This document shows positions 28,949 to 53,965 of a stretch of 64,000 bases of DNA, in pieces (within the stretch, counting starts at the first letter, position 1; the number at the start of each line of letters is the position of its first letter). The notes beneath the pieces are model-generated. The model was not told where the DNA came from. It was given only the letters and a program-made list of their open reading frames with translations, and searched no databases. The translations under genes and the position numbers were made by a program. The stretch comes from Dactylosporangium aurantiacum (GTDB lineage Bacteria; Actinomycetota; Actinomycetes; Mycobacteriales; Micromonosporaceae). Location of the stretch: the NCBI RefSeq assembly GCF_000716715.1, contig NZ_JNYJ01000037.1, positions 1 through 64,000 of the forward strand, written 5' to 3'.

Positions 28949-28951
28949 CGC

Positions 28952-30262
28952 ATGACGGCGATCCTTCTGGTCGGCTTCGCGCTCCTGACGTTGTGGCCGG
29001 CGTACAACCTGGCACTGGTGGCCTTCACCGCCAGTGACTCGGCCACCGCCGGCCGGCGTCGCCGGCGCGATGCCGTCGCGCCGAACGAGCACGAGCCGCT
29101 GACCTTCTGGATCGTCGTGCCCGCCCTCAACGAGGAACGGGTTGTCGGCCGGACCGTCTCCGCCGCACTGGCGCTGGCGGGCCCGGCAGGCACGCGCACC
29201 AGGGTCCTGGTGGTCGATGACGGATCGGACGACGGCACCCCGGACGTCCTGGCCGCCATCGACCACCCGGGTCTGACCGTGCTGCGCCGGGACTTCCCCA
29301 ACGCCCGCAAGGGCAAGGGCGAGGCGCTCAACGCCGCGTTCCGGGCGATCCGCGACCTGACCCTGCTGCACGGCGAGGACCCGGCGCTCGTCGCGGTCGG
29401 CGTCATCGACGGCGACGGGCGGGGCAGCGCCAACATCCTCACCGAGGTGTCGCGCCAGATGCGCGACCCGCGGGTCGGCGCGGTGCAGACCCGGGTGCGC
29501 ATCCACAACCGCAACCGTGTCCTCGGCGCCGTGCAGGACCTCGAGTTCGCCGCCATCGCCAACGCCAGCCAGCTGCTGCGCAACGCCGCGGGGACGGTCG
29601 GGCTGGGCGGCAACGGGCAGTTCGCCCGGCTGTCGTCGCTGATGCGGCTCGGCGACGCGCCGTGGTCGCACTGCCTGGTCGAGGACCTCGAGCTCGGGCT
29701 GCGGATGCACCTGAACGGCGAGCGCATCCGGTACACCTCGATCGCCAACGTCAACCAGCAGGGCCTCGTCGACGTGAAGCGGCTGCTGCGGCAGCGCACC
29801 CGGTGGGCCCAGGGCAACCTGCAGTGCGTCGGCTACGTGCCGAAGCTGGTCGCCTCCCGGAAGATCCGCAACCACGCGCTGCTGGAGATGCTGTACTACC
29901 TGCTCGCGCCGTGGATGAACGCCTTCGGCACGGCGGCGGTGTTCGGCCTCTGGGCGGTCGCGATGTGGCGGCTCCTGCCCGGCCACGGACAGTCGGTCCT
30001 GATCCACTCGTGGGCGCAGATGGGGCAGGTCGCGCTCTTCTGGGCGCTCGGCATGACCGTCCCGGGCGTCGTGTGGGCGCTGGTCCACCGCGTCCAGCTC
30101 GGCGACGAGAAGCTCTGGCGACTGCTGGTCGCCGCCGTCGCGTACCCCTTCTTCCTCCTGCTCGGCCTGGTCAGCACCTGGCGGGCGATCGGCCGGCAGA
30201 TCAGCCGGCGACAGGCCTGGGCGAAAACAGAACGCCTGGTCGAAGAGCCGGTTCTCTCGTAA
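28952..30262 (+). CDS. Processive family-2 glycosyltransferase (polysaccharide synthase)
   Basis: A 436-aa membrane glycosyltransferase of the PgaC/IcaA/HasA/cellulose-synthase type. One N-terminal helix (residues about 4-26) precedes the GT2 domain with VVDDGSDDG, the DxD-type IDGDG, the acceptor VEDLELG and the processivity motif QRTRW. Three or four C-terminal helices follow (about 309-405). It would polymerise a UDP-sugar and extrude the chain through the membrane. It lies between the LPXTG microprotein gene (3-nt gap) and UDP-GlcNAc 2-epimerase (13-nt gap), so the polymer probably contains an N-acetylhexosamine. The exact sugar cannot be decided from sequence. Confidence 0.88.
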   Translation: MTAILLVGFALLTLWPAYNLALVAFTASDSATAGRRRRRDAVAPNEHEPLTFWIVVPALNEERVVGRTVSAALALAGPAGTRTRVLVVDDGSDDGTPDVLAAIDHPGLTVLRRDFPNARKGKGEALNAAFRAIRDLTLLHGEDPALVAVGVIDGDGRGSANILTEVSRQMRDPRVGAVQTRVRIHNRNRVLGAVQDLEFAAIANASQLLRNAAGTVGLGGNGQFARLSSLMRLGDAPWSHCLVEDLELGLRMHLNGERIRYTSIANVNQQGLVDVKRLLRQRTRWAQGNLQCVGYVPKLVASRKIRNHALLEMLYYLLAPWMNAFGTAAVFGLWAVAMWRLLPGHGQSVLIHSWAQMGQVALFWALGMTVPGVVWALVHRVQLGDEKLWRLLVAAVAYPFFLLLGLVSTWRAIGRQISRRQAWAKTERLVEEPVLS

Positions 30263-30275
30263 AGGACGTCAGCAC

Positions 30276-31445
30276 ATGTCTCCCGAAGTCTTCCTCATCG
30301 CCGGTACCCGCCCCGAGGCCATCAAGCTGGCGCCCGTCGCCGCCGCGATGCGCGCCGCCGGCCGGCTCACCCCGGTGCTGGTCGCCAGCGGGCAGCACCC
30401 GACGATGGTCACCCAGGCCCTCGACGCGTTCGACGTCCAGGCCGACGTGACCCTGCCGCTGCAGCGGGTCACCGGCAGCCAGCCCGAGCTGCTCACCGCG
30501 ATGATCTCGTCACTGGACGCCCTGCTGGAGGAGCGCAAGCCGGCCGCGGTCGTCGTGCAGGGCGACACCACCACGACGCTCGCCGGCGCCATGGCCGCGT
30601 TCTGGCGGCGCATCCCGGTCGTGCACCTGGAGGCGGGGCTGCGCTCCGGCGACCTGGACTCGCCGTTCCCGGAGGAGGCCAACCGCAAGCTCGTCGGCCA
30701 GCTCGCCGCGCTGCACCTGGCGCCGACCGCGCTCGCCGCGACGAACCTGCTCGACGAGAGCGTCACCCCGGCGAACGTGCTCATCACCGGCAACACGGTG
30801 GTGGACGCGGCCCTGTCGATCGCCGCCCGCGAGCTGCCGTTCACCGACGCCCGCATCGCCGCCGCCGTCGACGCCGCCGAGCACGGCAAAGCCCGCCTGG
30901 TCCTGGTCACCGCGCACCGCCGCGAGTCGTGGGGCGAGCCCCTGGACCGCATCCTCAGCGCGGTGCGCCGCCTGATCGAGGCGTACCCCGACATCCGGGT
31001 CGTCCTGCCGGCGCACGCCAACCCGGCCGTGCGCGCCCAGGTCGAGGCCGGCCTCGCCGGGGTGCCCCGGGTGACGGTCACCGACCCGCTGCCCTACCCG
31101 GACCTCGCCCGGCTGCTGTCGCGGGCGTACCTGACGCTCACCGACTCCGGCGGCATCCAGGAGGAGGCGCCGTCGTTCAAGGTGCCGGCGCTCGTCCTGC
31201 GTGAGGTCACCGAGCGCGTCGAGTCGCTGCACGCGGGTTGCGCGAAGCTCGTCGGCACGGACGAGGACCTCATCGTCGCCGAGGCGGCCCGGCTGCTCGA
31301 CGACCCGGTCCTGCGGCAGTCGATGACCGCCAACGGCAACCCCTACGGCGACGGGCTCGCGTCGCAGCGCACCGAGCAGGCCGTCGCCGCGATGCTCGGC
31401 CTCGCCGCGCACCCCGCCCCCATGCCGACCACCGTCTCCGTCTGA
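30276..31445 (+). CDS. wecB: UDP-N-acetylglucosamine 2-epimerase (non-hydrolysing)
   Basis: Interconverts UDP-GlcNAc and UDP-ManNAc in the cytoplasm. The 389-aa length is typical. Motifs are intact: GTRPEAIKLAPV (residues 10-21), GQHPTMV, GDTTTT (Asp near 91), HLEAGLRS (Glu near 113), FPEEANRK (Glu near 127), TAHRRES (His near 208) and TDSGGIQEE near 290. An AAGGA ribosome site precedes ATG 30276. It sits between a processive glycosyltransferase and a secreted deacetylase-like protein, which suggests that ManNAc units enter an exported polysaccharide; supply for cell-wall linkage units is the alternative. Confidence 0.93.
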   Translation: MSPEVFLIAGTRPEAIKLAPVAAAMRAAGRLTPVLVASGQHPTMVTQALDAFDVQADVTLPLQRVTGSQPELLTAMISSLDALLEERKPAAVVVQGDTTTTLAGAMAAFWRRIPVVHLEAGLRSGDLDSPFPEEANRKLVGQLAALHLAPTALAATNLLDESVTPANVLITGNTVVDAALSIAARELPFTDARIAAAVDAAEHGKARLVLVTAHRRESWGEPLDRILSAVRRLIEAYPDIRVVLPAHANPAVRAQVEAGLAGVPRVTVTDPLPYPDLARLLSRAYLTLTDSGGIQEEAPSFKVPALVLREVTERVESLHAGCAKLVGTDEDLIVAEAARLLDDPVLRQSMTANGNPYGDGLASQRTEQAVAAMLGLAAHPAPMPTTVSV

Positions 31446-31465
31446 GTTAGGGATCCCGTACCGAC

Positions 31466-33067
31466 ATGCGCAAGCTGATCAGTTCGCTCGCGGCCGTCAC
31501 CGTGGCCGCGTCGCTCGCCCTCGCCGCACCGGCGGCCCCGGCCTTCGCCGCCGCGCCCACCGCCACGCGCTCCGGCGCCGGGGCACCGGGCTCGAACGCC
31601 GCGACGAAGACGCTCGTCCTCTACGACAACACCGGCCCGTACTCCTGGCTCGGCGAGGACTACGCGACGATGGCGACGAACCTCGTCTCCCACTTCGGGT
31701 CCTGGACCGCCCACCCGGTCGGCGCCTACAAGGCCGGTGAGATGTCGGCCTACTCCGCCGTCGTCTACGTCGGCTCCACCTACGACGAGCCGCTGCCGAC
31801 CGCGTTCCTCGACGACACCCTCGCCGACACGAAGCCGGTCGTGTGGATGTACAACAACATCTGGCAGCTGACCGCCCGCTCCGCCGACTTCGTCGGCACG
31901 TACGGCTACACCTGGAAGGGCTACGACACGTCCCCGGTGTCGCGGATCGACTACAACGGCACCACGATGACCCGCGACGTGCGCAACGCCGGCGGCATCA
32001 TGGACTACGTCGTCTCCGACCCGGCGAAGGCCGTCCCCGTCGGCACCGCGGTCCGCGCCGACGGCACCACCTTCCCGTGGGGCATCCGGTCCGGCAACCT
32101 GACCTACCTCGGCGAGATCCCGCTGTCCTACATCACCTCCAGCGACCGCTACCTCGCCTTCTCCGACCTGCTCTACTCGGTGCTCGCCCCGCAGACCGCC
32201 GCGCGGCACCGCGCCCTGGTCCGCATCGAGGACGTCGGCCCCGACGCCGACCCCGCCGAGCTGCGCGCCGTCGCCGACTACCTGTACTCGAAGAAGGTCC
32301 CCTTCACCGTCGCCGTCTACAGCCGGTACCGCGACCCGAAAGGCGTGAACAACGATGGCAAGGCCGAGGACTACACGCTGCGCCAGCGGCCACTGGTGGT
32401 CAGCGCCCTGAAGTACATGCAGAGCAAGGGCGGCACCCTGCTCCAGCACGGCTACACCCACCAGCTCGACGCGATCGACAACCCGTACGACGGCGTCAGC
32501 GCCAACGACTTCGAGTTCTTCATGGCGCACGTCGACGCCAACGACGCCGTCATCTACGACGGCCCGGTGAAGAACGACTCGGCGCTCAACGTGACCGCCC
32601 GCGTCATGGCCTCGCGCACCGACTGGCTCCTCGCCGGCCTGAAGCAGCCGACCATCTTCGAGTTCCCGCACTACGCGGCGAGCGCCCTGGACTACAAGAC
32701 GATCAACACGCTGTACGGCGTGCGCTACGAGCGCGGCCTCTACTTCCCGGGCGTGCTGTCCGGCGGCACGGTCGACAACAGCACCGCGCGCATGGTCGGG
32801 CAGTTCTTCCCCTACACGGTCCGTGACGTCTACGGCTCGACCGTCATCCCGGAGAACATCGGCAACATCGAGCCGGAGCCGTTCAACCAGCACCCGGCCG
32901 TCCTTCCCGCCGACCTGATCGCCAACGCGAAGACCAACCTGGCCGTCCGCGACGGCGTGGCGAGCTTCTTCTACCACCCGTACCTGGGCACCGACTACCT
33001 GAAGCAGACGGTGGAGGGCATCCAGGGCCTCGGCTACACGTTCGTCTCCGCGGCGGCGATGTCCTGA
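31466..33067 (+). CDS. Secreted DUF2334 polysaccharide-deacetylase-like protein
   Basis: A 533-aa exported protein. Residues 1-30 form a Sec signal peptide ending AAPAFAAAP. A Rossmann/flavodoxin-like domain follows (about 48-245, starting TLVLYDNTGPY). The DUF2334 polysaccharide-deacetylase-superfamily domain (about 250-520) has the acidic metal motif RIEDVGPDADP and a HGYTH metal site, with a later FEFPHYAAS block. Deacetylase-type chemistry on N-acetylated sugars outside the cell is the likely role. As last gene of the LPXTG-GT2-wecB operon it would modify the exported polymer, much as PgaB/IcaB do. A strong terminator hairpin follows the stop. Confidence 0.85.
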   Translation: MRKLISSLAAVTVAASLALAAPAAPAFAAAPTATRSGAGAPGSNAATKTLVLYDNTGPYSWLGEDYATMATNLVSHFGSWTAHPVGAYKAGEMSAYSAVVYVGSTYDEPLPTAFLDDTLADTKPVVWMYNNIWQLTARSADFVGTYGYTWKGYDTSPVSRIDYNGTTMTRDVRNAGGIMDYVVSDPAKAVPVGTAVRADGTTFPWGIRSGNLTYLGEIPLSYITSSDRYLAFSDLLYSVLAPQTAARHRALVRIEDVGPDADPAELRAVADYLYSKKVPFTVAVYSRYRDPKGVNNDGKAEDYTLRQRPLVVSALKYMQSKGGTLLQHGYTHQLDAIDNPYDGVSANDFEFFMAHVDANDAVIYDGPVKNDSALNVTARVMASRTDWLLAGLKQPTIFEFPHYAASALDYKTINTLYGVRYERGLYFPGVLSGGTVDNSTARMVGQFFPYTVRDVYGSTVIPENIGNIEPEPFNQHPAVLPADLIANAKTNLAVRDGVASFFYHPYLGTDYLKQTVEGIQGLGYTFVSAAAMS

Positions 33068-42152: not shown

Positions 42153-42478
42153 TTCCTCCCGACTCCCGTCCGTCCGTTCCTCCGCGCGCTGTCCACCTGC
42201 CGGTGCCGAGCGCCCGCCTGCCCTGAGTGCCCGCCGATGGCGGCGCCCGCCGGCCGGGGAGCGCCTCGCGGCCCGCCCCGCCCTGGCCACCCGCCGACAC
42301 CACGACCGACGTCCACGACCGACACGACCGACGTCCACGACCGACGCCGCCCATCGGCGCGCCGCCGGTCGGGGTCGTCGCCGTCCGGGGTGTCGCCGGC
42401 GTGGGTGCCGGGTGTCGTGTCGCCGGCCGGCTCCGGTGGCGGTCCGGCGCGCGTACCGAAGCCGAAAGGGCTCCCGTC
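42153..42478. other. Gene-free gap with 22-bp tandem duplication
   Basis: This 326-bp gap between the DUF6412-like and YidC-like genes holds no gene I can support. It contains a perfect 22-bp tandem duplication (42301-42322 and 42323-42344) built from CGACCGACGTCCACGACC. An open frame reaches through it to the YidC gene, but the peptide is low-complexity Pro/Arg/Ala. Confidence 0.6.
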
Positions 42479-43063
42479 GTGCTGCACCATGTCCTCGTCC
42501 TGCTGTCCACCACCACCGGATCCGTCGCCGCCGCCATCGTCATCGCCACCCTCGCCGTCCGCGCCGCGCTGCTGCCGTTGAGCCTGCGGGCGTACCGCGC
42601 CGAGAAGGTCCGCGCCCGGCTCGCCCCGCAGCTCACCGCGTTGCGGGAGCGGCACGGCAAGGACCCGGTCGCGCTCGCCGAGAAGACCGCCGAGCTCATG
42701 CGGGCCGAAGGGTCCGGGCCGCTCGCCGGGATCCTGCCGACGCTCGCCCAAGCGCCGGTGATCTGGCTGCTGTACCGCGAGTTCAGCGGCGACGCCGTGC
42801 GCGGGCACACGCTGCTCGGCGCCGACCTCACCGCCCGGCTCCTGGACCACCCGGCGCTGCCCGCCGGCTGGCTGATCGTCGCCGCCCTCGCCGCGATCGC
42901 GGTCTGGAACGTGCGGCAGCTCCCGGCCGGCTCGCCGGGCTTCGTCAGGGTGCTGTCGTTCGGCACCGTGGCGTTCGCCGCCCTCACCCCCGTCGCGGCC
43001 GGGATCTACCTGGTCACCTCGGGGCTCTGGACGGCCGTCGAGCGGATCGTCGCGCGGCGCTGA
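42479..43063 (+). CDS. YidC/Oxa1-family membrane protein insertase (short form)
   Basis: A 194-aa membrane protein. The first helix with LAVRAALLPLSLRAYRAEK (positively charged groove end) is followed by the cytosolic hairpin ARLAPQLTALRERHGKDP. Three further helices follow. It is shorter than main YidC proteins (about 300 aa or more) and lacks a large extracellular domain, as in accessory YidC2-like proteins of actinobacteria. GTG 42479 is chosen because GAAAGGG lies 8-9 nt upstream and the first helix starts there. It is probably a dedicated insertase for particular small membrane proteins. Confidence 0.82.
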   Translation: MLHHVLVLLSTTTGSVAAAIVIATLAVRAALLPLSLRAYRAEKVRARLAPQLTALRERHGKDPVALAEKTAELMRAEGSGPLAGILPTLAQAPVIWLLYREFSGDAVRGHTLLGADLTARLLDHPALPAGWLIVAALAAIAVWNVRQLPAGSPGFVRVLSFGTVAFAALTPVAAGIYLVTSGLWTAVERIVARR

Positions 43064-43229: not shown

Positions 43230-44345
43230 GTGCGAACGGGTGTGTGGCTGGTAGGCGCGCGCGGTTCCGTCGCCGTCACCAGCATCGTCGGCGCTGCCGC
43301 TGTGCGCGCCGGGCTCACCGAGCCGATCGGTTGTGTCACCGAGCATCCGGTGCTGCGCAGCGACGCGCTGCCCGCCTTCGGCGACCTCGTCTTCGGCGGT
43401 CACGACATCGCCACCATCAGCGTGGTGAAGAAGGCCGAGGCCCTCGCCGAGTCCGGGGTGGTGCCGGCCCGGCTGGTGGCGACCCTGCACTCGGAGCTGG
43501 CGGCGGTGGACGAGGAGATCCGTCCACTGCCGCACGGCACCGCCGCCGAGGTCGCCGCCGCGGTCACCGCCGACCTGCTGCACTTCCGGCGGCGGCACGG
43601 CCTGGCCCGGGTGGTGGTCGTCAACGTCGCCTCCACGGAGGCCGCGGCGGCGCCCCACCCCGCCCACACGAGCCTGGAGTCGCTGCGCGACGCGCTCGAC
43701 ACGCTGCCGCCCAGCGCGTTGATGGCGTACGCGGCCTTCGAGGCGGGCTGCGCCTTCGTCGACTTCACCCCGTCCACCGGCGCCCGCCTGCCCGCCCTGC
43801 ACGAGCTGGCCACGGCGAGCCGGGTGCCCTACGCCGGGCACGACGGCAAGACCGGCGAGACGCTGATCAAGTCGGTGCTGGCGCCGATGTTCGCCATGCG
43901 CAACCTGCGGGTGCGGTCCTGGTCCGGGACCAACCTGCTGGGCGGCGGCGACGGCGCGACCCTGGCCGAGCCCGCCGCCAACGCCGCGAAGTCGGCCAGC
44001 AAGCAGCGGGTGCTCAGCGAGACCCTCGGCTACCAGCCCGACGGCCACACCCGCATCGAGTACGTGCCCGACATCGGCGACTTCAAGACCGCCTGGGACC
44101 TCATCACGTTCGCCGGGTTCCTCGGCACGCCGATGCGGATGGAGTTCACCTGGCACGGCTGCGACTCCGCGCTCGCCGCGCCGCTGGTGCTGGACCTGGC
44201 CCGGCTCACCGCCGCCGCGCACGGTGCCGGGCGGGTCGGGCCGCTGACCGAGCTGGCGTTCTTCTTCAAGGACCCGCTCGGCGAGGTCGACCACGCGCTC
44301 GGCGCGCAGTTCGAGGCCCTCGCCACGTTCGTGCGGTCGCTGTGA
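43230..44345 (+). CDS. myo-Inositol-1-phosphate-synthase-like cyclase (first gene of Ebo-type operon)
   Basis: A 371-aa NAD-dependent sugar-phosphate cyclase of the inositol-3-phosphate synthase superfamily. It has the Rossmann motif GARGSVA (residues 8-14), HDGKTGETLIKS near 200-212, GTNLLGGGDG, the Lys pair in KSASKQRV, and YVPDIGDFKTAWD near 278-290. The equivalent blocks in true inositol synthase carry catalytic Lys and Asp residues. It probably cyclises a hexose phosphate (or a close analogue) to a cyclitol phosphate. GTG 43230 has GGAGGG upstream; the frame extends further but without a fold. Its stop overlaps the prenyltransferase start. It occupies the place of the dehydroquinate-synthase-like EboD of other Ebo operons. 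Confidence 0.88.
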   Translation: MRTGVWLVGARGSVAVTSIVGAAAVRAGLTEPIGCVTEHPVLRSDALPAFGDLVFGGHDIATISVVKKAEALAESGVVPARLVATLHSELAAVDEEIRPLPHGTAAEVAAAVTADLLHFRRRHGLARVVVVNVASTEAAAAPHPAHTSLESLRDALDTLPPSALMAYAAFEAGCAFVDFTPSTGARLPALHELATASRVPYAGHDGKTGETLIKSVLAPMFAMRNLRVRSWSGTNLLGGGDGATLAEPAANAAKSASKQRVLSETLGYQPDGHTRIEYVPDIGDFKTAWDLITFAGFLGTPMRMEFTWHGCDSALAAPLVLDLARLTAAAHGAGRVGPLTELAFFFKDPLGEVDHALGAQFEALATFVRSL

Positions 44346-45235
44346 GCACCCCCGCCGCCCGACCCGGCGGGCAGGTCCTCGACTGGCGGACGCTCGCCGA
44401 GCTGGTGCGGGCGCCCGCGGCGCTGAGCGTGCCGGGTGACGTCGTCGCGGGGGCCGCCGCCGCGGGCACCCTGGGGCCGCGCACGCCGCTGCTCGCCTCC
44501 TCATCCGTCCTGCTGTACTGGGCGGGCATGGCCGCCAACGACTGGTCCGACCGCGACCTGGACGCAGTCGAACGACCGGAGCGGCCGATCCCGTCGGGCC
44601 GCGTCACACCCGGGGCCGCGTTCGGGGTCGCGGCCGGCCTGACCGCCGCGGGCGTCGCGCTCGCCGGGCTGGCCGGCGGCCGCCGCGCCCTCGCCGTCGC
44701 CGTGCCGCTCGCCGGCACCGTGTGGGCCTACGACCTCAAGCTCAAGAACACCCCGGCGGGACCGGCGGCGATGGCGGCCTGCCGCGCGCTGGACGTGCTC
44801 CTCGGCGCGAGCGGCGGGCGCCTGCGCCGGGCCGTGTACCCGGCGGCGACGGTGTTCGCGCACACGTACACCGTGACCGCGCTGTCCCGCGCCGAGGTCC
44901 ACGGCTCCACGCCGTCGCTGCCCGCCGCCACGCTGGCCGGGTCCGCCGCGGTGGCGGTGTCGGCGGCGCTGCCGTCGCGGCGCCCCGGATGGCGGTCGCT
45001 GATCCCGCTCGCGCTGTCCGGCTGGTACGCGAAACGCTACGGTGAGGCGCAGCTGCGGGCTCTCGAGAAACCGACCGCGGGCAACATCCGGGCGTCGGTC
45101 GGGGCCGGGATCGTCAACCTGCCGACGCTGCAGGGCGCGCTCACCGCACGGGCCGGCGCACCGATCGCCGGGATCGCCGTCGCGGCCGCCGCGCCGCTGG
45201 GCCGGCACCTCGCGAAACGGCTGTCACCGACATGA
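44342..45235 (+). CDS. eboC: UbiA-family prenyltransferase (SCO3242/EboC type)
   Basis: A 297-aa membrane prenyltransferase with about eight helices. The first Asp-rich motif is ANDWSDRDLDA (residues about 63-73) and the second is YDLKLKNT (about 129-136), both intact for binding Mg-prenyl-diphosphate. This sequence type matches the SCO3242 family encoded next to inositol-synthase-like genes in Streptomyces. It would transfer a polyprenyl group to the cyclitol-type product of the operon at the membrane. It starts at GTG in a GTGA overlap with the cyclase gene and ends in an ATGA overlap with the next gene. Confidence 0.88.
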   Translation: MSTPAARPGGQVLDWRTLAELVRAPAALSVPGDVVAGAAAAGTLGPRTPLLASSSVLLYWAGMAANDWSDRDLDAVERPERPIPSGRVTPGAAFGVAAGLTAAGVALAGLAGGRRALAVAVPLAGTVWAYDLKLKNTPAGPAAMAACRALDVLLGASGGRLRRAVYPAATVFAHTYTVTALSRAEVHGSTPSLPAATLAGSAAVAVSAALPSRRPGWRSLIPLALSGWYAKRYGEAQLRALEKPTAGNIRASVGAGIVNLPTLQGALTARAGAPIAGIAVAAAAPLGRHLAKRLSPT

Positions 45236-46092
45236 GCCTGCGGTTCGGGTACGGGACGAACGGCTTCAGCAACCACCGCCTCGACGACGCGCTGACCGTC
45301 ATCGCCGGGCTCGGCTACACCGGGGTGGCCCTGACGCTGGACCACCATCATCTGGACCCGTACGACAGCAACCTGTGGCGGCACGTCCGCGCGCTCGGGC
45401 AGCGGCTGCAGGAGCTCGGCCTCGGCGTCGTCATCGAGACCGGCGCCCGGTTCCTGCTCGACCCGTGGCACAAGCACGCGCCGACGCTGCAGGACGACGA
45501 GCCCGAGGCGCGCGTCGACTTCCTGCGCCGGGCCGTGCGCATCGGCGCCGACCTCGGCGCGGAGGCGGTCAGCTTCTGGGCCGGGGTGCGCCCGCCCGGG
45601 CTGCCGCCGGACGTCGCGTGGCGGCGGCTCGTCACCGGCTGCGCCGAGGTGCTCGCCGCCGCCGAGGGCGCGGAGATGATGCTCGGGTTCGAGCCCGAGC
45701 CCGGGATGCTCGTCGAGTCGATCACGGACTGGGAGCGGCTGCGCGCCGACCTCGGCGCGCCCGTCCACTTCGGCCTGACCCTGGACATCGGCCACTGCCG
45801 CTGCCTGGAGCCGTGGCCCGCCGACGAGTGCGTCCGGCGCGTCGCCGGGCAGCTGGTCAACGTGCAGATCGACGACATGCGCCGCGGGGTGCACGAGCAC
45901 CTCGAGTTCGGCACCGGCGAGGTCGACTTCCCGGCGGTGCTGCGGGCCCTCACCGAGACCGACTACGGCGGCCTGGTCGCCGTCGAGCTGCCCCGGCACA
46001 GCCACGCCGCGCCCGCCGTGGCCCGGGACTCCCTCGCGTTCCTGCGCGCCGCCGAAGCGCAGGCACTGGACCGATTCCAGGAGGTGCCATGA
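45232..46092 (+). CDS. Sugar phosphate isomerase/epimerase (xylose-isomerase-like TIM barrel)
   Basis: A 286-aa AP-endonuclease-2-like TIM barrel. Metal ligands are visible in GFEPEPGM (Glu), LTLDIGHC (Asp, His), NVQIDDM (Asp) and VAVELPRHSH (Glu). It begins LRFGYGTNGFSNHRL. It probably isomerises or epimerises the cyclitol or a sugar precursor. ATGA overlaps join it on both sides, so it is translated as part of the seven-gene operon. A second TIM-barrel gene of a different type (EboE) lies three genes downstream. Confidence 0.85.
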   Translation: MSLRFGYGTNGFSNHRLDDALTVIAGLGYTGVALTLDHHHLDPYDSNLWRHVRALGQRLQELGLGVVIETGARFLLDPWHKHAPTLQDDEPEARVDFLRRAVRIGADLGAEAVSFWAGVRPPGLPPDVAWRRLVTGCAEVLAAAEGAEMMLGFEPEPGMLVESITDWERLRADLGAPVHFGLTLDIGHCRCLEPWPADECVRRVAGQLVNVQIDDMRRGVHEHLEFGTGEVDFPAVLRALTETDYGGLVAVELPRHSHAAPAVARDSLAFLRAAEAQALDRFQEVP

Positions 46093-46685
46093 ACCTGTAC
46101 GACTCCCTCACCGCCGAGCTGACGGACACGGTGTGGCTCGACACGGCGCTCGAGACCGTGGCCCGGCAGCCCTCGGCGATCGGCCGGCTCTTCCCCGCCG
46201 CCGGCCGCCGCTGCGGGCGGTGGGCCCTCACCGGGCTGCCCGGCTGGACCGTCGACGACGCGGCCCGGGTCCTCCTGCTGACCCGCATGCCCGCAAGCGC
46301 CCTGCAGACCGAGCTGGAGCCGCTCTACCGGTACGGTGACGGCGCGGAGAAGCGGGCCGTGCTGCGGGCGCTGCCGCTGCTGCCGCCGCAGGACGCCGCG
46401 CCGGGGATCCTGCTCGACGCGTTGCGCACGAACGACACCCGGCTCGTCGCCGCCGCGCTCGGCCCCGCCGCCGCGTGCCTGCCCGACGCCGCGTGGCGGC
46501 AGGGCGTGCTGAAGGCGGTCTTCATGGGCCTGCCGCTGGCCGCCGTCGCCGACCTCGACACGCGCGCCGACGCCGAGCTCGCCACCATGCTCGCCGGGCT
46601 CGTCGAGGAGCGCACCGCCGCCGGGCGCGCCGTCGCCGAGGACGCCATGGCGCTGTTGCACCGTCTTCAGGAGAGGGTCTCGTGA
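46089..46685 (+). CDS. eboA: EboA-domain protein
   Basis: A 198-aa soluble, helical, Ala/Leu-rich protein with HEAT-like repeating helices (RWALTGLPGW, YGDGAEKRAVLRALPLLP, RLVAAALGPAAACL). This is the pattern of EboA, the family-defining protein of unknown biochemical role in Ebo operons. No catalytic motif is seen. It is joined to both neighbours by overlapping start/stop codons. Identification rests on this helical pattern and the surrounding TatD, EboE, UbiA and phosphodiesterase genes. Confidence 0.8.
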   Translation: MNLYDSLTAELTDTVWLDTALETVARQPSAIGRLFPAAGRRCGRWALTGLPGWTVDDAARVLLLTRMPASALQTELEPLYRYGDGAEKRAVLRALPLLPPQDAAPGILLDALRTNDTRLVAAALGPAAACLPDAAWRQGVLKAVFMGLPLAAVADLDTRADAELATMLAGLVEERTAAGRAVAEDAMALLHRLQERVS

Positions 46686-47548
46686 TGCGCATCTTCGACC
46701 CGCACATCCACATGACGTCACGGACCACCGACGACTACGAGCGGATGGCCGCCGCCGGGGTCCGCGCGCTGGTCGAGCCGGCGTTCTGGCTCGGGCAGCC
46801 GCGCACCAGCGTCGGCTCGTTCACCGACTACTTCGACTCCCTCGTCGGGTGGGAGCCGTTCCGGGCCTCCCAGTTCGGCATCCGGCACCACTGCACGATC
46901 GCGCTCAACCCGAAGGAGGCCAACGACGCCCGCTGCCGCGAGGTGCTGCAGGTGCTGCCGCGGTACCTGGAGAAGGACGGCGTCGTCGCGGTCGGCGAGA
47001 TCGGCTACGACTCGATGACGCCGGAGGAGGACGAGGTGTTCGCCGCGCAGCTCGCCCTCGCCGTCGAGCACGAGCTGCCGGCGATGGTGCACACCCCGCA
47101 CCGCGACAAGGCCCGCGGCACCGACCGGACCCTCGCCGTCGTCCGCGAGTCGGGCATCGACCCGGGCCGGGTCGTCGTGGACCACCTCAACGAGGTCACC
47201 GTCGCGCGGGTCGCCGAGAGCGGCTGCTGGATGGGGTTCTCGATCTACCCCGACACGAAGATGACCCCGCAGCGGATGGTCGCCATCCTGCAGGAGCACG
47301 GCTTGGACCGGGTCCTGGTGAACTCGGCCGCCGACTGGGGCCGCTCCGACCCGCTGCTGACGCGGTACACCGGCGAGGCGATGCTGGCCGCCGGGTTCAG
47401 CGACGACGACGTCGACCGGGTGCTGTGGCGCAACCCGGTGGAGTTCTACGGCCAGTCCAAGCGGCTCGACGTCTCCGACCTCGACACCATCGGGGCTCCC
47501 CTGCCGGCGACCTTCGAGGGGAACTCGATCCTCCGCGGCGGGTCGTGA
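46685..47548 (+). CDS. eboB: TatD-like metal-dependent hydrolase (EboB type)
   Basis: A 287-aa amidohydrolase-fold protein. Metal ligands: DPHIH at residues 5-9, Glu in GEIGYD, His in MVHTPHRDK and VDHLNE, and Asp in NSAADWG. All are intact, so it should be an active hydrolase. A GTG at 46682 in a GTGA overlap is an alternative start to ATG 46685. It is followed by EboE in a TGATG overlap. Substrate unknown; in Ebo operons the TatD-like protein always accompanies EboA and EboE. Confidence 0.87.
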   Translation: MRIFDPHIHMTSRTTDDYERMAAAGVRALVEPAFWLGQPRTSVGSFTDYFDSLVGWEPFRASQFGIRHHCTIALNPKEANDARCREVLQVLPRYLEKDGVVAVGEIGYDSMTPEEDEVFAAQLALAVEHELPAMVHTPHRDKARGTDRTLAVVRESGIDPGRVVVDHLNEVTVARVAESGCWMGFSIYPDTKMTPQRMVAILQEHGLDRVLVNSAADWGRSDPLLTRYTGEAMLAAGFSDDDVDRVLWRNPVEFYGQSKRLDVSDLDTIGAPLPATFEGNSILRGGS

Positions 47549-48684
47549 TGCGGCTGCGACACCCCGACGGCCAGGTCGTGCACCTGGCCTACGGGACCAA
47601 TGTCCACCCGGCGGAGGACCTGCCGGGCATCCTCACGCAACTCGATGTCTACGCGGCCCGGGTCCGGTCGCACCTCGACACCGCCGTCCTCGGGCTCGGG
47701 CTGTGGCTCGCCGCGCCGGTCGCCGCCGCCCTCGCCGCGGAGCCGGTCCTGCGCCGCCGGCTGCGCCGCGAGCTGGACGTGCGCGGCCTGGAGGTGGTGA
47801 CCCTCAACGGGTTCCCCTACGAGGCGTTCCACGCGCCGGTGGTGAAGAAGGCCGTGTACCTGCCGGACTGGGCCGACCCGCGGCGGCTGCGGTACACCAT
47901 GGACCTCGCCCGGGTCCTCGTGGACCTGCTGCCCGACGACGCCGCGCGGGGCTCGATCTCGACGCTGCCGCTCGGCTGGCGCGACCCGTGGGACAGCCCG
48001 CAGGTCGGCGCGGTCAACCGGGCCCTGGACCAGCTCGCGTACGGGCTGTCGTTCCTGGACCGGCCGATCCGGGTCGCCTTCGAGCCGGAGCCCGGGTGCG
48101 TCATCGAGAACACCCTGCAGGCGACCGTGCACCTGTCCCGGGTCGACCCCAGGTACCTCGGCGTCTGCGTCGACCTCGCGCACCTCGCGTGCGCCTGGGA
48201 GGACCCGGTCACCGCGGTGCAGCGCCTCGCCCGGGCCGGGCTGCCGGTGGTGAAGGTGCAGGTGTCGGCGGCCCTGTCCGTCGACGACCCGGGCGCGCCG
48301 GCCCTCGCCGGGTACGTCGAGCCCCGTTTCATGCACCAGACCCGCTCCCGCGGCTGCGCGGCGTCGTTCGACGACCTCGACGAGGCGCTCGCCAGCGGGG
48401 CCGACGGCCCGTGGCGGGTGCACTACCACGTGCCGCTGCACGCCTCGCCCGAGCCGCCGCTGGAGGCGACCACCGGCGTGCTGCGGGCCGGCCTCGCGGT
48501 GCTGCTCGGCGGGCCTGTCGCCGGCTGCGACCACCTCGAGGTCGAGACGTACACCTGGGGCGTGCTGCCGCCGTCCCAGCGCCCCACCGGGCCGCAGCAG
48601 CTCGCCGCCGGGATGGCCGCCGAGCTCGCCTACGCCCGCGACACCCTGCACGACCTCGGTCTCAAGACGTTGGAGCCACGATGA
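47548..48684 (+). CDS. eboE: EboE metabolite-traffic TIM-barrel protein
   Basis: A 378-aa xylose-isomerase-like TIM barrel with the EboE N-terminal signature HLAYGTNVHPAEDLPG. Later blocks are TLNGFPYEAFHAPVVKK, FEPEPGCVIEN and GVCVDLAHLACAWEDP with metal-type Glu, Asp and His, and HYHVPLHA. In cyanobacteria Ebo genes are needed to move the scytonemin monomer towards the periplasm, so this protein is named for metabolite traffic. Its reaction is unknown. ATG 47548 overlaps the TatD stop by one base; the stop overlaps the next ATG. Confidence 0.87.
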   Translation: MRLRHPDGQVVHLAYGTNVHPAEDLPGILTQLDVYAARVRSHLDTAVLGLGLWLAAPVAAALAAEPVLRRRLRRELDVRGLEVVTLNGFPYEAFHAPVVKKAVYLPDWADPRRLRYTMDLARVLVDLLPDDAARGSISTLPLGWRDPWDSPQVGAVNRALDQLAYGLSFLDRPIRVAFEPEPGCVIENTLQATVHLSRVDPRYLGVCVDLAHLACAWEDPVTAVQRLARAGLPVVKVQVSAALSVDDPGAPALAGYVEPRFMHQTRSRGCAASFDDLDEALASGADGPWRVHYHVPLHASPEPPLEATTGVLRAGLAVLLGGPVAGCDHLEVETYTWGVLPPSQRPTGPQQLAAGMAAELAYARDTLHDLGLKTLEPR

Positions 48685-50054
48685 GCAAGCCCCTGCTGGT
48701 CCTCGACGTGGTCGGGCTGACGCCCCGGCTGCTGCCGCACATGCCGCGCCTGTCCGCGGTCGGCGCCGCGGTGCCGCTGCGGCCCGTGCTGCCCGCGGTC
48801 ACCTGCTCCGTGCAATCGACGTTCCTCACCGGGGCCATGCCGTCCGACCACGGAATCGTCGGCAACGGCTGGTACTTCCGGGACCTGGGCGAGATCTTCC
48901 TGTGGCGCCAGCACAACGCCCTCGTCGGCGGCGACAAGCTGTGGCACGCCGCCCGCCGGGTCAAGCCGGACTACACGGTGGCGAACGTGTGCTGGTGGTA
49001 CGCGATGGGCGCCGACGTCGACTGGACCGTGACCCCGCGCCCCATCTACTACGCCGACGGGCGCAAGGAGCCGGACTGCTACACGTTCCCGCCCGCGCTG
49101 CACGACGAGCTGACCGCCCGCCTCGGCGAGTTCCCGCTGTTCACGTACTGGGGACCCGGCGCCGGCATCCCGTCCTCGGAGTGGATCGCCAGGGCCGCCG
49201 AGCAGATCCTGGTCGACAAGTCGCCGGACCTGACCCTGGTGTACCTGCCGCACCTCGACTACGACCTCCAGCGCTTCGGCCCGTCCTCGCCGGAGGCCGC
49301 CAAGGCCGCCGCCGCGCTGGACAACGTCGTCGCTCCCCTGCTGGCGGCCGCCGCCGCGCGGGACGTCACGGTCGTCGTCCTCTCGGAGTACGGCATCACC
49401 GACGCGAGCCGCCCGGTCGACGTCAACCGCCTGCTGCGCGCCGAAGGGCTGCTCAACGTCTACACCCAGGACGGCATGGAGTACCTCGACCCGTGGACGT
49501 CGCGGGCCTTCGCGGTCGCCGACCACCAGGTCGCGCACGTGTACGTCCGCGACGCCGCCGACCTGCCGCTGGTGCAGAAGCTGTGCGCCGGCCTGCCCGG
49601 CGTCGGCGAGGTCCTCGACGCCGCCGGCAAGCAGCGCACCGGCCTGGACCACGAGCGCGCCGGCGAGCTGGTCCTGCTCGCCGAGCCCGACGCGTGGTTC
49701 ACGTACTACTACTGGCTCGACGACGCCCGCCGCCCCGACTTCGCGCAGCTGGTCGAGATCCACCGCAAGCCCGGCTACGACCCGGCGGAGCTGCTCTTCG
49801 ACCCGGCCGCCCCGGGCGCGGCGAAGGCCCGGGCCGGGGTCGCGCTGGCCCGCAAGAAGCTCGGGATGCGGTACATGATGAGCGTCGTCGGCCTGGACGC
49901 CGGCGCCCGGGCGGTCAAGGGCTCCCACGGGCTGCTGCCGTCCACGGTGGACGACGGGCCGGTGTGGATGTGCAGCGACCCGGCGGTGGCGCCCGAGTCG
50001 GTCGACGCGACGGACGTGAAGGGGCTGCTGCTGCGCCTCGCCGGACTGGCCTGA
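48681..50054 (+). CDS. eboF: Alkaline-phosphatase-superfamily phosphodiesterase (EboF type)
   Basis: A 457-aa nucleotide-pyrophosphatase-like enzyme, last gene of the operon. Metal Asp 9 (LVLDVVGL) and nucleophile Thr 41 (PAVTCSVQ) fit the family. The usual DxxGHxxGP block reads DYDLQRFGP (Gln for His) and the usual SDHG reads SEYG, near residue 236, while the final His site KGSHG near 416 is kept. Thus some standard metal ligands are replaced, perhaps changing chemistry. There is no signal peptide, so it is cytosolic. It may release a phosphate or diphosphate group in the Ebo pathway. The ATG is in an ATGA overlap with eboE. Confidence 0.85.
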   Translation: MSKPLLVLDVVGLTPRLLPHMPRLSAVGAAVPLRPVLPAVTCSVQSTFLTGAMPSDHGIVGNGWYFRDLGEIFLWRQHNALVGGDKLWHAARRVKPDYTVANVCWWYAMGADVDWTVTPRPIYYADGRKEPDCYTFPPALHDELTARLGEFPLFTYWGPGAGIPSSEWIARAAEQILVDKSPDLTLVYLPHLDYDLQRFGPSSPEAAKAAAALDNVVAPLLAAAAARDVTVVVLSEYGITDASRPVDVNRLLRAEGLLNVYTQDGMEYLDPWTSRAFAVADHQVAHVYVRDAADLPLVQKLCAGLPGVGEVLDAAGKQRTGLDHERAGELVLLAEPDAWFTYYYWLDDARRPDFAQLVEIHRKPGYDPAELLFDPAAPGAAKARAGVALARKKLGMRYMMSVVGLDAGARAVKGSHGLLPSTVDDGPVWMCSDPAVAPESVDATDVKGLLLRLAGLA

Positions 50055-51053: not shown

Positions 51054-53780
51054 TCAGCTGCCGGCCTTGACCCACGCGGCGATCTGCGTCCGCGACTCCA
51101 GGTTGAGCTTGCTCAGAATGTTGGAGACGTGCACGGCCGCGGTCCGCGGCGAGATGTACAGCCGACGGGCCAGCTCGGCGTTGGTCAGGCCCTCCGCGAG
51201 CAGCACCGCCACCTCCCGCTCCCGTGGCGTCAGGGCCTGGTCGCCGGCGACGGGGCCGCCGAGGCCGAGCCGCCCGCGCAGCGCCGACAGCTCCGCGACC
51301 CGCCACCCGGACCAGCGCGCGAGGAGCGGCTCGGCGGTGCGGACATGCTGGCGGGCTCCGTCGAGGTCGCCGAGGGCGACCAGGCAGCGGGCGGCGCCGA
51401 CGTGACCGGAGCCCTTCGTGGCCGGCAGCAGCATCGACGGCTCGGCGACCGCGCGCCGGTAGCCGGCGAGCGCGGCGGTGTGGTCGCCGGCGGCCTCGGC
51501 GATCTGCGCGTCGGCGAGCCACCGCCACGCGTCGTCGAAGAACGGGTCGTCGATCGCGGCGGCGACCGGCCGCAGCTCGTCGACGCCGAGCCCGCCGACG
51601 AGCCCGGCGGAGATGAGGTCGTGGGCGAAGTCGCGGCCGGTGACCCCGGTGACCCGCACCGCGTCGAGGACCGCCCGGAGCAGCTCGCGGGCCTGGTCGG
51701 TGTGCCCGCGCCGGGCGGCCAGGTGGAACTGCAGGCCGGGCACCGACGTCTGGGTCAGCATCGTGTACGTGTCGGTCGCCTCGACCATGCCGCGGATGAC
51801 GGTGTCGGCCCGGTCCAGCTCGCCGGCCTCCAGCAGCAGCCCGGCGAAGAACACGCCGTGGTAGTCGATGCCGTTGCGGGTGCGCAGCAGGCCGCGGTCG
51901 CGCCGCCGGGCCGACTCCAGCTCGGCGAGGGCCCCGCCGAGGTTGCCCTCCTGCACGGCGAGCCGGGCGCGGCCCTGGAAGTACGCGGCGACGGCGAGGG
52001 ACTCGAAGCCGGCCCGCTCAGCGAACGTCCGCATCCGCTCCAGCGCCGCGGCCCAGTCGGCCGGGCCGCCGGGCAGCAGGTTGTACAGGTTGTTGAGCGA
52101 CCGGGCGGCGAGCAGCCACTCGCCTGCCTGCTCGGCCTCCTGGGCCGCCTCGTTGAGCAGCTTGATGCCGTCGTCGACGCCGGCGGCGAAGTTGACCAGC
52201 GCCGAGCCCTTCTCGACCTTGCCGGCCAGCCACACGGCCGGCAGCCCGAGCCGCTCGCCGAGGCTGATCGCCTTGTCCGCCCACTCGATGGCGCACTCGG
52301 TGTTGTCCATGAGCATGTACGCCTGGGCGATCGCCGCATACGCGTGGGCCTTCGCCGGCCCGTCGTCGAGCGGCTCGATCTCGGCGCGCAGCTCCTCGGC
52401 CCGCTCCTGCATGCTGCCGCTGCTGCCGATCTCCCAGCTGAGCCGCACGAGCAGCCGCAGCGCGTCGGCGCGGTCGGCGCGGGTGCCGGCGGCGGCGAGC
52501 CAGCGGCGGCCGAGCTCCTGGGCGTCGTCGAGGAGCCCGGCGAGCCACGCGGCGCGCGCCCCGCACGAGAGCAGCTCCACGTCGTCGGGCAGCTCGTCGA
52601 GGCCCATCTCGGCCAGCTGCAGCGCCTGGTACGGCGAGCCCATCGCCAGGTAGGTGGCCAGTCCGCGCCGGGCGGCCTCGACCATGTCGAGGTAGCGGCC
52701 GGCGCCGCGGGCGTGGTGCGCGACGAGCGCGTAGTCCTTGCTGCCGGTGGACAGCAGCGTCTCCAGGGCCAGCTCGTGCAGGCGGCGGCGCTGGCGGGCG
52801 AGCAGCTCGTCGGCGAGCGCCTCGCGGGTCAGTGCGTGCCGGAAGCTGAACTCGTCGTCGCCGGTCTCCACCATCAGCCCGCGCCGCACGAGGACCCGCA
52901 GCGCGTCGATGAGCTCCGGCTCGCTGTGGCTGGTGACGGCTGCGAGCAGGTCGAACGGGACCTTGCGGCCGAGCACCGCGGCGGCCTCGACGATGCGTTT
53001 CTCGGTCGGGTCGAGGTCGTCGAGCTGGCGCCGCAGCGCCTCGGCCACGTTCCACGGCAGCGGCCGGTCGCACAGCGTGTCGAGGTCCTCGTCGCCGTTG
53101 GCCTTGATCAGCTCTTCGAGGAAGAACGGGTTGCCACCGGTGCGGTTGTGCAGTGACAGCGCCGTCCGGTACGCCGGCGGCCGGCCGGTCACGGACTTCA
53201 GGAACCGTGACGTCTCGGCGAGGTTGAGCCGCTCCAGCCGCACGTTGGTCACCATGTACCGCCGCTCGAGCCGGGTCAGCAGATCGGCCAGGGGGTGCCG
53301 GCGGGTGACCTCGTCGGGCCGGTAGGTGCCGATGAGCAGCCGGCTGCCGGGCAGGTCCGCGATCCGCTCGAACAGCGCGACGCTCTCCGAGTCGGCCCAG
53401 TGCAGGTCCTCGAACACGACCACCGACGGCCCGGGCGTGGTCAGCAGCCGCACGATCTCCAGCCCGGCCTGGATCCGGTCGATCATCGACCGGGACGCGT
53501 CGGTGACGGTCACCAGCAGCTCCGGGTCGAGCCCGGCCGAGCGGTGGCAGCTGTCGATCGCGTCGAGCAGCACCTCGAACGGCCGGCTCAGCGTGCCGGG
53601 ATCGGCCTGCCCGTCGAGCACCGGCACCGTCTCGGGCAAGCCCGTGATCAGCTCCTGCACCAGACGGCTCTTACCGATGCCCGGCTCGCCGCCGAGCATG
53701 GCGATGGACGGCTCGGACCCGTCGAGGAGCCGCCGCAACCGGCGCAGCTCATCGTCGCGGCCGACCATCACCTGGCTCAC
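51054..53780 (-). CDS. Large ATP-binding LuxR-type (LAL) transcriptional regulator
   Basis: A 908-aa STAND regulator: AAA-type ATPase (Walker A GGEPGIGKSRL near residues 31-41; Walker B-like VVVFEDLHWAD), a TPR-like helical middle, and a C-terminal LuxR helix-turn-helix (about 845-905: LTPREREVAVLLAEGLTNAELA, SPRTAAVHVSNILSKLN). GTG 53780 is chosen because it forms a GTGA overlap with the upstream microprotein gene; ATG 53768 and GTG 53801 are alternatives. The coupling suggests that the microprotein and regulator are made together. Target genes are not evident. It differs in sequence from the LAL gene at 22-25 kb. Confidence 0.9.
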   Translation of the reverse strand: MSQVMVGRDDELRRLRRLLDGSEPSIAMLGGEPGIGKSRLVQELITGLPETVPVLDGQADPGTLSRPFEVLLDAIDSCHRSAGLDPELLVTVTDASRSMIDRIQAGLEIVRLLTTPGPSVVVFEDLHWADSESVALFERIADLPGSRLLIGTYRPDEVTRRHPLADLLTRLERRYMVTNVRLERLNLAETSRFLKSVTGRPPAYRTALSLHNRTGGNPFFLEELIKANGDEDLDTLCDRPLPWNVAEALRRQLDDLDPTEKRIVEAAAVLGRKVPFDLLAAVTSHSEPELIDALRVLVRRGLMVETGDDEFSFRHALTREALADELLARQRRRLHELALETLLSTGSKDYALVAHHARGAGRYLDMVEAARRGLATYLAMGSPYQALQLAEMGLDELPDDVELLSCGARAAWLAGLLDDAQELGRRWLAAAGTRADRADALRLLVRLSWEIGSSGSMQERAEELRAEIEPLDDGPAKAHAYAAIAQAYMLMDNTECAIEWADKAISLGERLGLPAVWLAGKVEKGSALVNFAAGVDDGIKLLNEAAQEAEQAGEWLLAARSLNNLYNLLPGGPADWAAALERMRTFAERAGFESLAVAAYFQGRARLAVQEGNLGGALAELESARRRDRGLLRTRNGIDYHGVFFAGLLLEAGELDRADTVIRGMVEATDTYTMLTQTSVPGLQFHLAARRGHTDQARELLRAVLDAVRVTGVTGRDFAHDLISAGLVGGLGVDELRPVAAAIDDPFFDDAWRWLADAQIAEAAGDHTAALAGYRRAVAEPSMLLPATKGSGHVGAARCLVALGDLDGARQHVRTAEPLLARWSGWRVAELSALRGRLGLGGPVAGDQALTPREREVAVLLAEGLTNAELARRLYISPRTAAVHVSNILSKLNLESRTQIAAWVKAGS

Positions 53781-53965
53781 TCCGCTACGGCTGGCCCGCA
53801 CGCCACCAGCCTACCGGCGGGCGGGCGGTGCGATGGCTGTGACGGACGCGACCTGCGCCACCACGGCCGGTCGTCCCCGCCGGCGCGCCGGGGGCCGCGG
53901 CCGAGGCCGAGCAGGTCCTCCTGACGGTGCTGGACCTGCACGAAGAGAAACACTGGGTGCATCAT
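53777..53965 (-). CDS. Coupled microprotein upstream of the LuxR-type regulator, 62 aa
   Basis: A short basic protein starting with tandem ATG codons at 53965 and 53962, with AAGGAG 6 nt upstream. The N-terminus MMHPVFLFVQVQHRQEDLL resembles the other microprotein at 54381 (both have M-x-HP, hydrophobic residues, then V-x-RQ). The rest is Arg/Pro/Gly-rich. Its stop overlaps the GTG of the LuxR-type gene. It could be a leader for translational coupling or a functional peptide regulator. I cannot name a function. Confidence 0.65.
   Translation of the reverse strand: MMHPVFLFVQVQHRQEDLLGLGRGPRRAGGDDRPWWRRSRPSQPSHRPPAGRLVACGPAVAE

Follow-up and report, generated by a model that had tools for sequence, protein, structure and literature searches.

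Gene content of the operon

The window analysed here is a 64,000-nucleotide stretch of DNA from the soil actinobacterium Dactylosporangium aurantiacum (contig NZ_JNYJ01000037.1, positions 1 to 64,000), and its subject is an operon of the ebo type in which a cyclase of the myo-inositol-1-phosphate synthase (MIPS) family stands in the place of EboD. The operon (43230-50054, + strand) comprises seven genes with six short overlaps between neighbours (Table 1), namely GTGA at the MIPS/UbiA junction, ATGA at UbiA/TIM and TIM/EboA, TGATG at EboA/TatD and TatD/EboE, and ATGA at EboE/phosphodiesterase. All seven genes and all six overlapping junctions proposed in an earlier note on this DNA, which had been made from the sequence alone, were verified. 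The MIPS gene begins with a GTG codon, and GGAGGG is found upstream of this start.

Table 1 Genes of the ebo-type operon and their profile matches
Feature	Coordinates	Strand	Profile match
MIPS-type cyclase, 371 aa, distinct from mycothiol INO1, in EboD's place	43230-44345	+	PF07994, 157 bits (cut-off 25); PF01658, 109 bits (cut-off 27)
UbiA-family membrane prenyltransferase, SCO3242 family, EboC-like	44342-45235	+	NF045897, 383 bits (cut-off 260)
TIM-barrel sugar isomerase/epimerase-like protein, companion of MIPS in ebo-type clusters	45232-46092	+	PF01261, 121 bits (cut-off 31)
EboA-domain protein	46089-46685	+	NF035938, 152 bits (cut-off 50)
TatD-like metal hydrolase, EboB counterpart	46685-47548	+	PF01026, 58 bits (cut-off 27)
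EboE, TIM-barrel 'metabolite traffic protein'	47548-48684	+	NF035939, 373.6 bits (cut-off 250)
Type I phosphodiesterase/nucleotide pyrophosphatase family protein, EboF counterpart	48681-50054	+	PF01663, 208 bits (cut-off 23)

The ebo operon eboABCDEF has been described from eustigmatophyte plastids, Bacteroidetes, Cyanobacteria and other groups (Yurchenko et al. 2016, PMC5133447). The window operon shares with it the EboA domain, the TatD-like EboB, UbiA, EboE and the phosphodiesterase EboF, all co-directional, but lacks EboD, contains MIPS and an additional TIM-barrel protein, has a UbiA of the SCO3242 family, and follows the order MIPS-UbiA-TIM-EboA-TatD-EboE-phosphodiesterase.

EboA and EboE had been named in the earlier note, and both proteins passed the curated profiles NF035938 and NF035939; the narrower EboA family NF035937 was missed (77 bits, cut-off 320). 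The UbiA protein passed the SCO3242-family equivalog but not the EboC model NF035940, with 132 bits against a cut-off of 250, a cut-off also missed by five of six UbiA proteins from EboD-type clusters. The UbiA protein contains the motifs NDWSDRD (from residue 66), YDLKLK (from 130) and CRALD (from 147), both aspartate motifs and the arginine after the second one being retained, and one of the solved proteins to which it is weakly related is digeranylgeranylglyceryl phosphate (DGGGP) synthase, an enzyme of archaeal ether-lipid synthesis. In Streptomyces coelicolor the rest of an ebo-type cluster presumably lies beside SCO3242, after which the NCBIfam UbiA family is named, and SCO3243. These two genes form a UbiA-family and MIPS pair like that of the window, with the annotations 'putative transferase' and 'myo-inositol phosphate synthase', but are treated as genes of the calcium-dependent antibiotic (CDA) cluster in the source concerned (PMC3610822).

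The TIM protein has a xylose-isomerase-like barrel and remained under every NCBIfam cut-off, the best model being hydroxypyruvate isomerase, with IolE and IolO also matched. TIM and EboA lie in a single open frame at four of the named loci described below, an arrangement consistent with the actinobacterial TIM-EboA hybrids reported by Yurchenko et al. 2016 (PMC5133447), in which a xylose-isomerase-like domain is joined to EboA. The predicted structure of EboA is all-helical, perhaps a HEAT-like solenoid, and the protein is a possible scaffold; no convincing relative was found with its profile among PDB sequences (best E 0.035), and at E 0.001 or better Foldseek gave no PDB match for the predicted fold. 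In the NCBIfam profile search the TatD protein hit no curated EboB model. It is 53 % and 59 % identical, over about 285 residues, to the TatD proteins of the EboD-type clusters of Aureibacter and Azospirillum respectively, and the phosphodiesterase is 44 % and 55 % identical to those of the same two ebo clusters.

The MIPS lineage and its association with EboE

The closest database protein to the window MIPS (93 % identity) is labelled Dactylosporangium maewongense, and the nearest solved structure is the archaeal-type MIPS of A. fulgidus (1u1i, 223 bits), which the window protein resembles in sequence family and active-site residues; the five-membered-cyclitol-phosphate synthase 6k96 scored 49 bits, so that the window protein is closer to MIPS. 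We know of no link between the A. fulgidus enzyme and a UbiA enzyme or Ebo proteins. In an alignment with 1u1i covering residues 141-371, window residues D205, N235, K254, K258, K286, D312 and K347 correspond to A. fulgidus D225, N255, K274, K278, K306, D332 and K367, of which D225 is taken by us to be an active-site residue of MIPS. PMC5614600 describes five of the seven residues as important to the A. fulgidus enzyme, and K278 is the second lysine of a K-x-x-x-K motif given there. The seven positions are invariant in 34 ebo-linked actinobacterial MIPS, in three haloarchaeal copies, in one Gemmatirosa copy and in 120 listed database relatives, and are kept as well in the 17 other actinobacterial MIPS and in INO1, and therefore indicate an intact MIPS active site and nothing specific to the operon. 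The activity of the operon MIPS is most likely the predicted conversion of glucose 6-phosphate to inositol 1-phosphate.

The window MIPS falls below the equivalog cut-off for mycothiol INO1 (TIGR03450, 29.5 bits against 638), whereas a second MIPS of the same genome passes that model with 661.6 bits; a housekeeping role for the operon MIPS is unlikely given this separate canonical INO1. In a tree of 64 rows, the 34 ebo-linked actinobacterial MIPS formed one clade, whose support (87/98) did not reach the tool's star. Other actinobacterial MIPS lie outside this clade, and INO1 is very distant from it. The ebo-linked haloarchaeal MIPS clustered with a Halomarina copy (support 97/71) that lies outside any ebo-like cluster and adjoins glycosyltransferase genes. 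A single clade of the ebo-linked MIPS of actinobacteria, haloarchaea and Gemmatirosa excluding Halomarina was rejected by the approximately unbiased (AU) test (p 0.0025), and the same clade including the Halomarina copy was not (p 0.47), so that one or several recruitments of MIPS are both possible.

An even sample of 296 Actinomycetota genomes was searched for EboE, MIPS and EboD. EboE was present in 14 genomes, in 13 of them above the curated cut-off. The window MIPS as query matched 196 of the 296 genomes, with more than 300 bits in 13 only, and these are exactly the 13 above the EboE cut-off (13/13 versus 0/283, Fisher p 6e-23, uncorrected for kinship); the lowest of them scored 307.6 bits and the highest other genome 207.8. 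Presence and absence of EboE and MIPS co-vary within five sampled families (f2, f4, f8, f16 and f31), and neither EboE nor operon-type MIPS was found in three of eight genomes of the sampled genus g8 and in seven of eight of family f2. In the fourteenth EboE genome, G279 (locus L030:5642-10643), the cluster appears decayed or misassembled, with UbiA split between frames and a gap at residues 85-138, and EboE without residues 116-284; no TIM or MIPS gene was found near this cluster, and the best MIPS of the genome (198 bits) is on another contig. By alignment, tree and co-occurrence, the operon MIPS is thus a dedicated lineage that has kept its active site and is tied to EboA, EboB, EboE, EboF and UbiA across the phylum sample.

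The earlier note placed a MIPS-like cyclase in the EboD slot and held that EboD elsewhere in the same genomes would tell against this. The EboD model NF004852, which covers known EboD (two plasmid-encoded examples score 531 and 571 bits), was above cut-off in none of the 296 genomes, the window genome included, and in none of the 34 named EboE-positive actinobacterial genomes checked out of the 80 described below; both positive controls passed, the Salipiger plasmid with 534 bits and the Gloeothece plasmid with 594. A hidden EboD elsewhere in the window genome was also ruled out, since the EboD model was missed and the sole dehydroquinate-synthase domain lies in a protein passing the AroB model (337.9 bits, cut-off 305). 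By these profile searches EboD is absent from the sampled actinobacteria carrying EboE and the MIPS variant, and the placement given in the earlier note is borne out.

Gene neighbourhoods within and beyond Actinomycetota

A survey of EboA/EboE neighbourhoods, one of the checks suggested in the earlier note, was carried out by a scan of genome contigs, which yielded at least 590 stretches encoding EboE. The best 80 of these, all from actinobacteria, were compared as named loci, a selection that makes the counts lean towards close relatives. MIPS adjoins the cluster in 56 of the 80, and 54 of the 56 have all seven families. In these 54 the families lie on one strand, in exactly the order of the window in 52 and with additional fragment hits in the order of the other two. 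Overlapping starts are possible in 35 to 52 of the 54 seven-gene loci, depending on the junction, and at all six junctions jointly in only nine, so that complete overlap, the state found in the window, is not the rule. Among the 14 EboE stretches of the sampled genomes, the seven families are complete in 12, L018 and L030 being without MIPS. Judged by gene content, the MIPS-type operon is a real variant that occurs across several families of the phylum.

The 24 named loci without an adjoining MIPS fall into two sets of 12. Those of one set start no more than 630 bases from a contig end; a match above 270 bits was found in nine of their genomes and only a 90-bit piece in G314, and no operon-type MIPS was found with the window MIPS query in G311 and G312. 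The loci of the other set have more than 6 kb of upstream DNA and are all from Streptomyces (for example, L096); an operon-type MIPS above 370 bits is encoded elsewhere in the genome in 11 of these 12, the exception being S. alanosinicus. At several of the second loci found in this way, MIPS adjoins TIM. Saccharomonospora ebo clusters are discussed in PMC9235831, which counts EboD among the ebo genes, whereas the Saccharomonospora locus L068 has the seven-gene MIPS arrangement in a genome without EboD above cut-off.

Evidence from outside the phylum came from 12 plasmid loci, taken out of more numerous hits. EboD was found in seven of them (L114-L117 and L122-L124, from Mycetohabitans, Ketogulonicigenium, Azospirillum, Salipiger, Aureibacter, Deinococcus and Gloeothece), MIPS in four (Gemmatirosa and the haloarchaea Halocatena, Natronococcus and Halobaculum) and neither in one, from Haladaptatus (L195), which otherwise has the same set as the other haloarchaeal plasmids. 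Four Streptomyces plasmids likewise carry MIPS and no EboD, and EboD and MIPS were not found together at any of the plasmid loci compared. Of the ebo set, the Gloeothece plasmid locus (L123) has TatD and EboD only. The TIM type of the window was matched at 55 of the 56 named MIPS loci, on all four Streptomyces plasmids and in Gemmatirosa (258 bits), more weakly in haloarchaea (90-99 bits, the MIPS-less L195 included), and at none of the seven EboD loci, in a comparison queried with the window TIM and thus blind to more remote isomerases there. One EboD locus, that of Ketogulonicigenium (L115), has an isomerase-annotated gene beside TatD that the window TIM does not match and that resembles IolE only weakly (29 bits). 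The exchange therefore appears to be of EboD for MIPS plus the TIM-barrel protein, and the cyclase replacement put forward in the earlier note stands in that MIPS is found where EboD is missing, but not as a simple one-for-one swap.

On the three haloarchaeal plasmids with MIPS (L120:6208-12509, L121:9016-15689 and L194:6040-12590), TatD, two TIM-barrel proteins, UbiA, MIPS and phosphodiesterase lie together. These clusters and that of Gemmatirosa resemble the window in MIPS, TIM-barrel proteins, UbiA, TatD and phosphodiesterase; the haloarchaeal ones differ in that no EboA or EboE was seen (by profiles on the Halocatena proteins, and by annotation and phmmer on the others) and in that their three MIPS group with the Halomarina copy. 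The Gemmatirosa kalamazoonensis plasmid (L127:7316-14435), an unannotated record, encodes EboE, TatD, phosphodiesterase, UbiA, MIPS and a window-type TIM, and no EboD, and on this gene content Gemmatimonadota is a further phylum with the MIPS variant.

Several plasmid MIPS-type clusters lie near biosynthetic genes, encoding a non-ribosomal peptide synthetase (L119), a polyketide-type aromatase/cyclase (L126), or a ScyD/ScyE family protein and a multicopper oxidase (L118 and L125). These neighbours would fit a service role for various metabolites, in a handful of cases taken without a control. In L118 and L125, two Streptomyces plasmids, the ScyD/ScyE gene is directly upstream of the MIPS-type operon (L118:4096-5298 and L125:4817-6016), the L118 protein matching NF033206 with 243 bits, and the multicopper oxidase gene is downstream, an arrangement that recalls the cyanobacterial scytonemin cluster. 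ScyD/ScyE as a regular partner of the operon was rejected, as phmmer over a set of loci longer than 3 kb matched L118 (the query), L125 and, weakly, L087. Near three EboD-type loci, the annotation shows a gene for a long hypothetical protein with one for a 'ferritin-like protein' after it, in a betaproteobacterium (L114:2069-5087), a member of Bacteroidota (L117:4073-7133) and a cyanobacterium (L123:10981-14262).

In the window itself, a short YidC/Oxa1-like membrane insertase gene (42227-43063, same strand) ends about 165 bases before the operon, and a diacylglycerol-kinase-like gene lies at the 3' end of the operon, beyond which a large regulator of AAA and LuxR type is encoded on the opposite strand (51054-53801). 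At 28949-33064 (+ strand), a family 2 glycosyltransferase gene is followed about 1.2 kb on by a DUF2334 gene, a possibly polysaccharide-related pair.

Predicted pathway and alternatives

From the observed gene content and intact active sites, we infer reactions, a product and a function for the operon as follows. MIPS would form inositol 1-phosphate by cyclising glucose 6-phosphate; isomerisation or dephosphorylation of the ring would fall to the two TIM-barrel proteins together with TatD and the phosphodiesterase, both hydrolases; UbiA would attach a prenyl chain to it, giving a prenylated cyclitol; EboA, as a predicted helical solenoid, could keep the soluble partners together near the membrane; and the resulting prenyl-inositol lipid may help carry a metabolite across the membrane, in line with the part suggested for Ebo genes of cyanobacteria in the export of scytonemin. 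Taken as a whole, an actinobacterial variant of the Ebo pathway, in which MIPS is used for EboD and a prenylated inositol-type lipid that helps to move metabolites is made, is considered somewhat probable. For clusters with EboD, an isoprenoid-cyclitol product had already been proposed (Yurchenko et al. 2016, PMC5133447), and deletion of ebo genes in Nostoc left the scytonemin monomer in the cytoplasm (PMC6282210); it is from these mutants, by analogy, that the export role suggested for the window operon is borrowed. The word inositol occurs nowhere in the Ebo papers PMC5133447 (main text), PMC6282210 and PMC9235831, nor in PMC6092422. No paper describing the exchange of EboD for MIPS was found in mostly open-access literature, with bioRxiv preprints outside the coverage; the annotations of SCO3242 and SCO3243 are long-standing.

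The acceptor of the UbiA enzyme is the point at which this pathway could most readily be otherwise, the cluster making an inositol-derived small molecule while UbiA prenylates a different acceptor, for example an aromatic acid, and no prenyl-inositol lipid is formed. UbiA-297, a relative of EboC, farnesylates 8-hydroxyquinoline-2-carboxylic acid and quinaldic acid in vitro, although these assays used crude membrane fractions and preselected aromatic acceptors (PMC9235831), and a review (PMC9655573) reports that tryptophan is turned into indole compounds by the P. fluorescens NZI7 EDB cluster, which is said to include a full ebo cluster (PMC6282210). Against such an acceptor, the UbiA and MIPS genes overlap or could overlap in 50 of the 54 seven-gene loci, and this alternative is regarded as unlikely. 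A lipid carrier would also be dispensable if the Ebo proteins formed an export or chaperone machine for which the cyclase merely supplies a polar head or tag. The same intermediate accumulates in the Nostoc ebo mutants studied, in which no gene-specific intermediates were detected (PMC6282210), and a machine of this kind would accord with the predicted helical solenoid of EboA and its want of a convincing PDB relative by sequence or Foldseek; yet all but one of the seven proteins look like members of enzyme families, and MIPS has retained its active site, which makes this quite improbable.

Other readings concern the cyclase itself. Relatives of MIPS are common in Actinomycetota, and with some match in two-thirds of the sampled genomes the operon copy might be a spare housekeeping enzyme that makes inositol for phosphatidylinositol or mycothiol and is in the operon by chance. 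The canonical INO1 is separate in the genome, the operon type occurs only with EboE, and no cytidine diphosphate (CDP)-alcohol transferase is among the seven genes; this very improbable reading was set aside on account of the separate INO1 and the exact tracking of EboE in the sample. Least probable would be a MIPS that makes another ring, such as a five-membered cyclitol phosphate, in the manner of the aristeromycin enzyme Ari2, which reportedly acts on fructose 6-phosphate to give such a product. The synthase 6k96 is among the solved MIPS relatives, which thus can change product, and aristeromycin work is cited by title in PMC5350119, but the low score against 6k96 beside that against A. fulgidus MIPS, and the retention of all seven residues checked, speak against it here.

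A broader and only tentative proposal, regarded as rather unlikely, is that two unrelated cyclases, EboD and the operon-type MIPS, have been recruited to the same end, namely to make the six-carbon ring head of a single prenyl-cyclitol export-carrier lipid in several phyla and in haloarchaea. If this were true, EboD would use a hexose phosphate and not sedoheptulose 7-phosphate as proposed, and MIPS and its companion TIM would together replace EboD. The 2-deoxy-scyllo-inosose synthase, a member of the EboD superfamily, acts on a hexose phosphate. Two published observations weigh against a unified product: EboD is placed near the sedoheptulose-phosphate cyclases in a published tree (PMC5133447), and Phycorickettsia, which has ebo genes, is predicted to have sedoheptulose 7-phosphate (PMC6092422).

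Although ebo genes occur in numerous phyla and in the plastids of some algae, and Nostoc needs them for scytonemin, no paper identifying the product of the Ebo pathway was found. EboD gives only a vague hint at a ring, whereas the MIPS reaction is well characterised, and the actinobacterial variant therefore predicts a concrete precursor, inositol 1-phosphate, in the genetically tractable Streptomyces. The MIPS variant would in this way narrow the possible ebo product and make the question of what the Ebo pathway produces directly testable.

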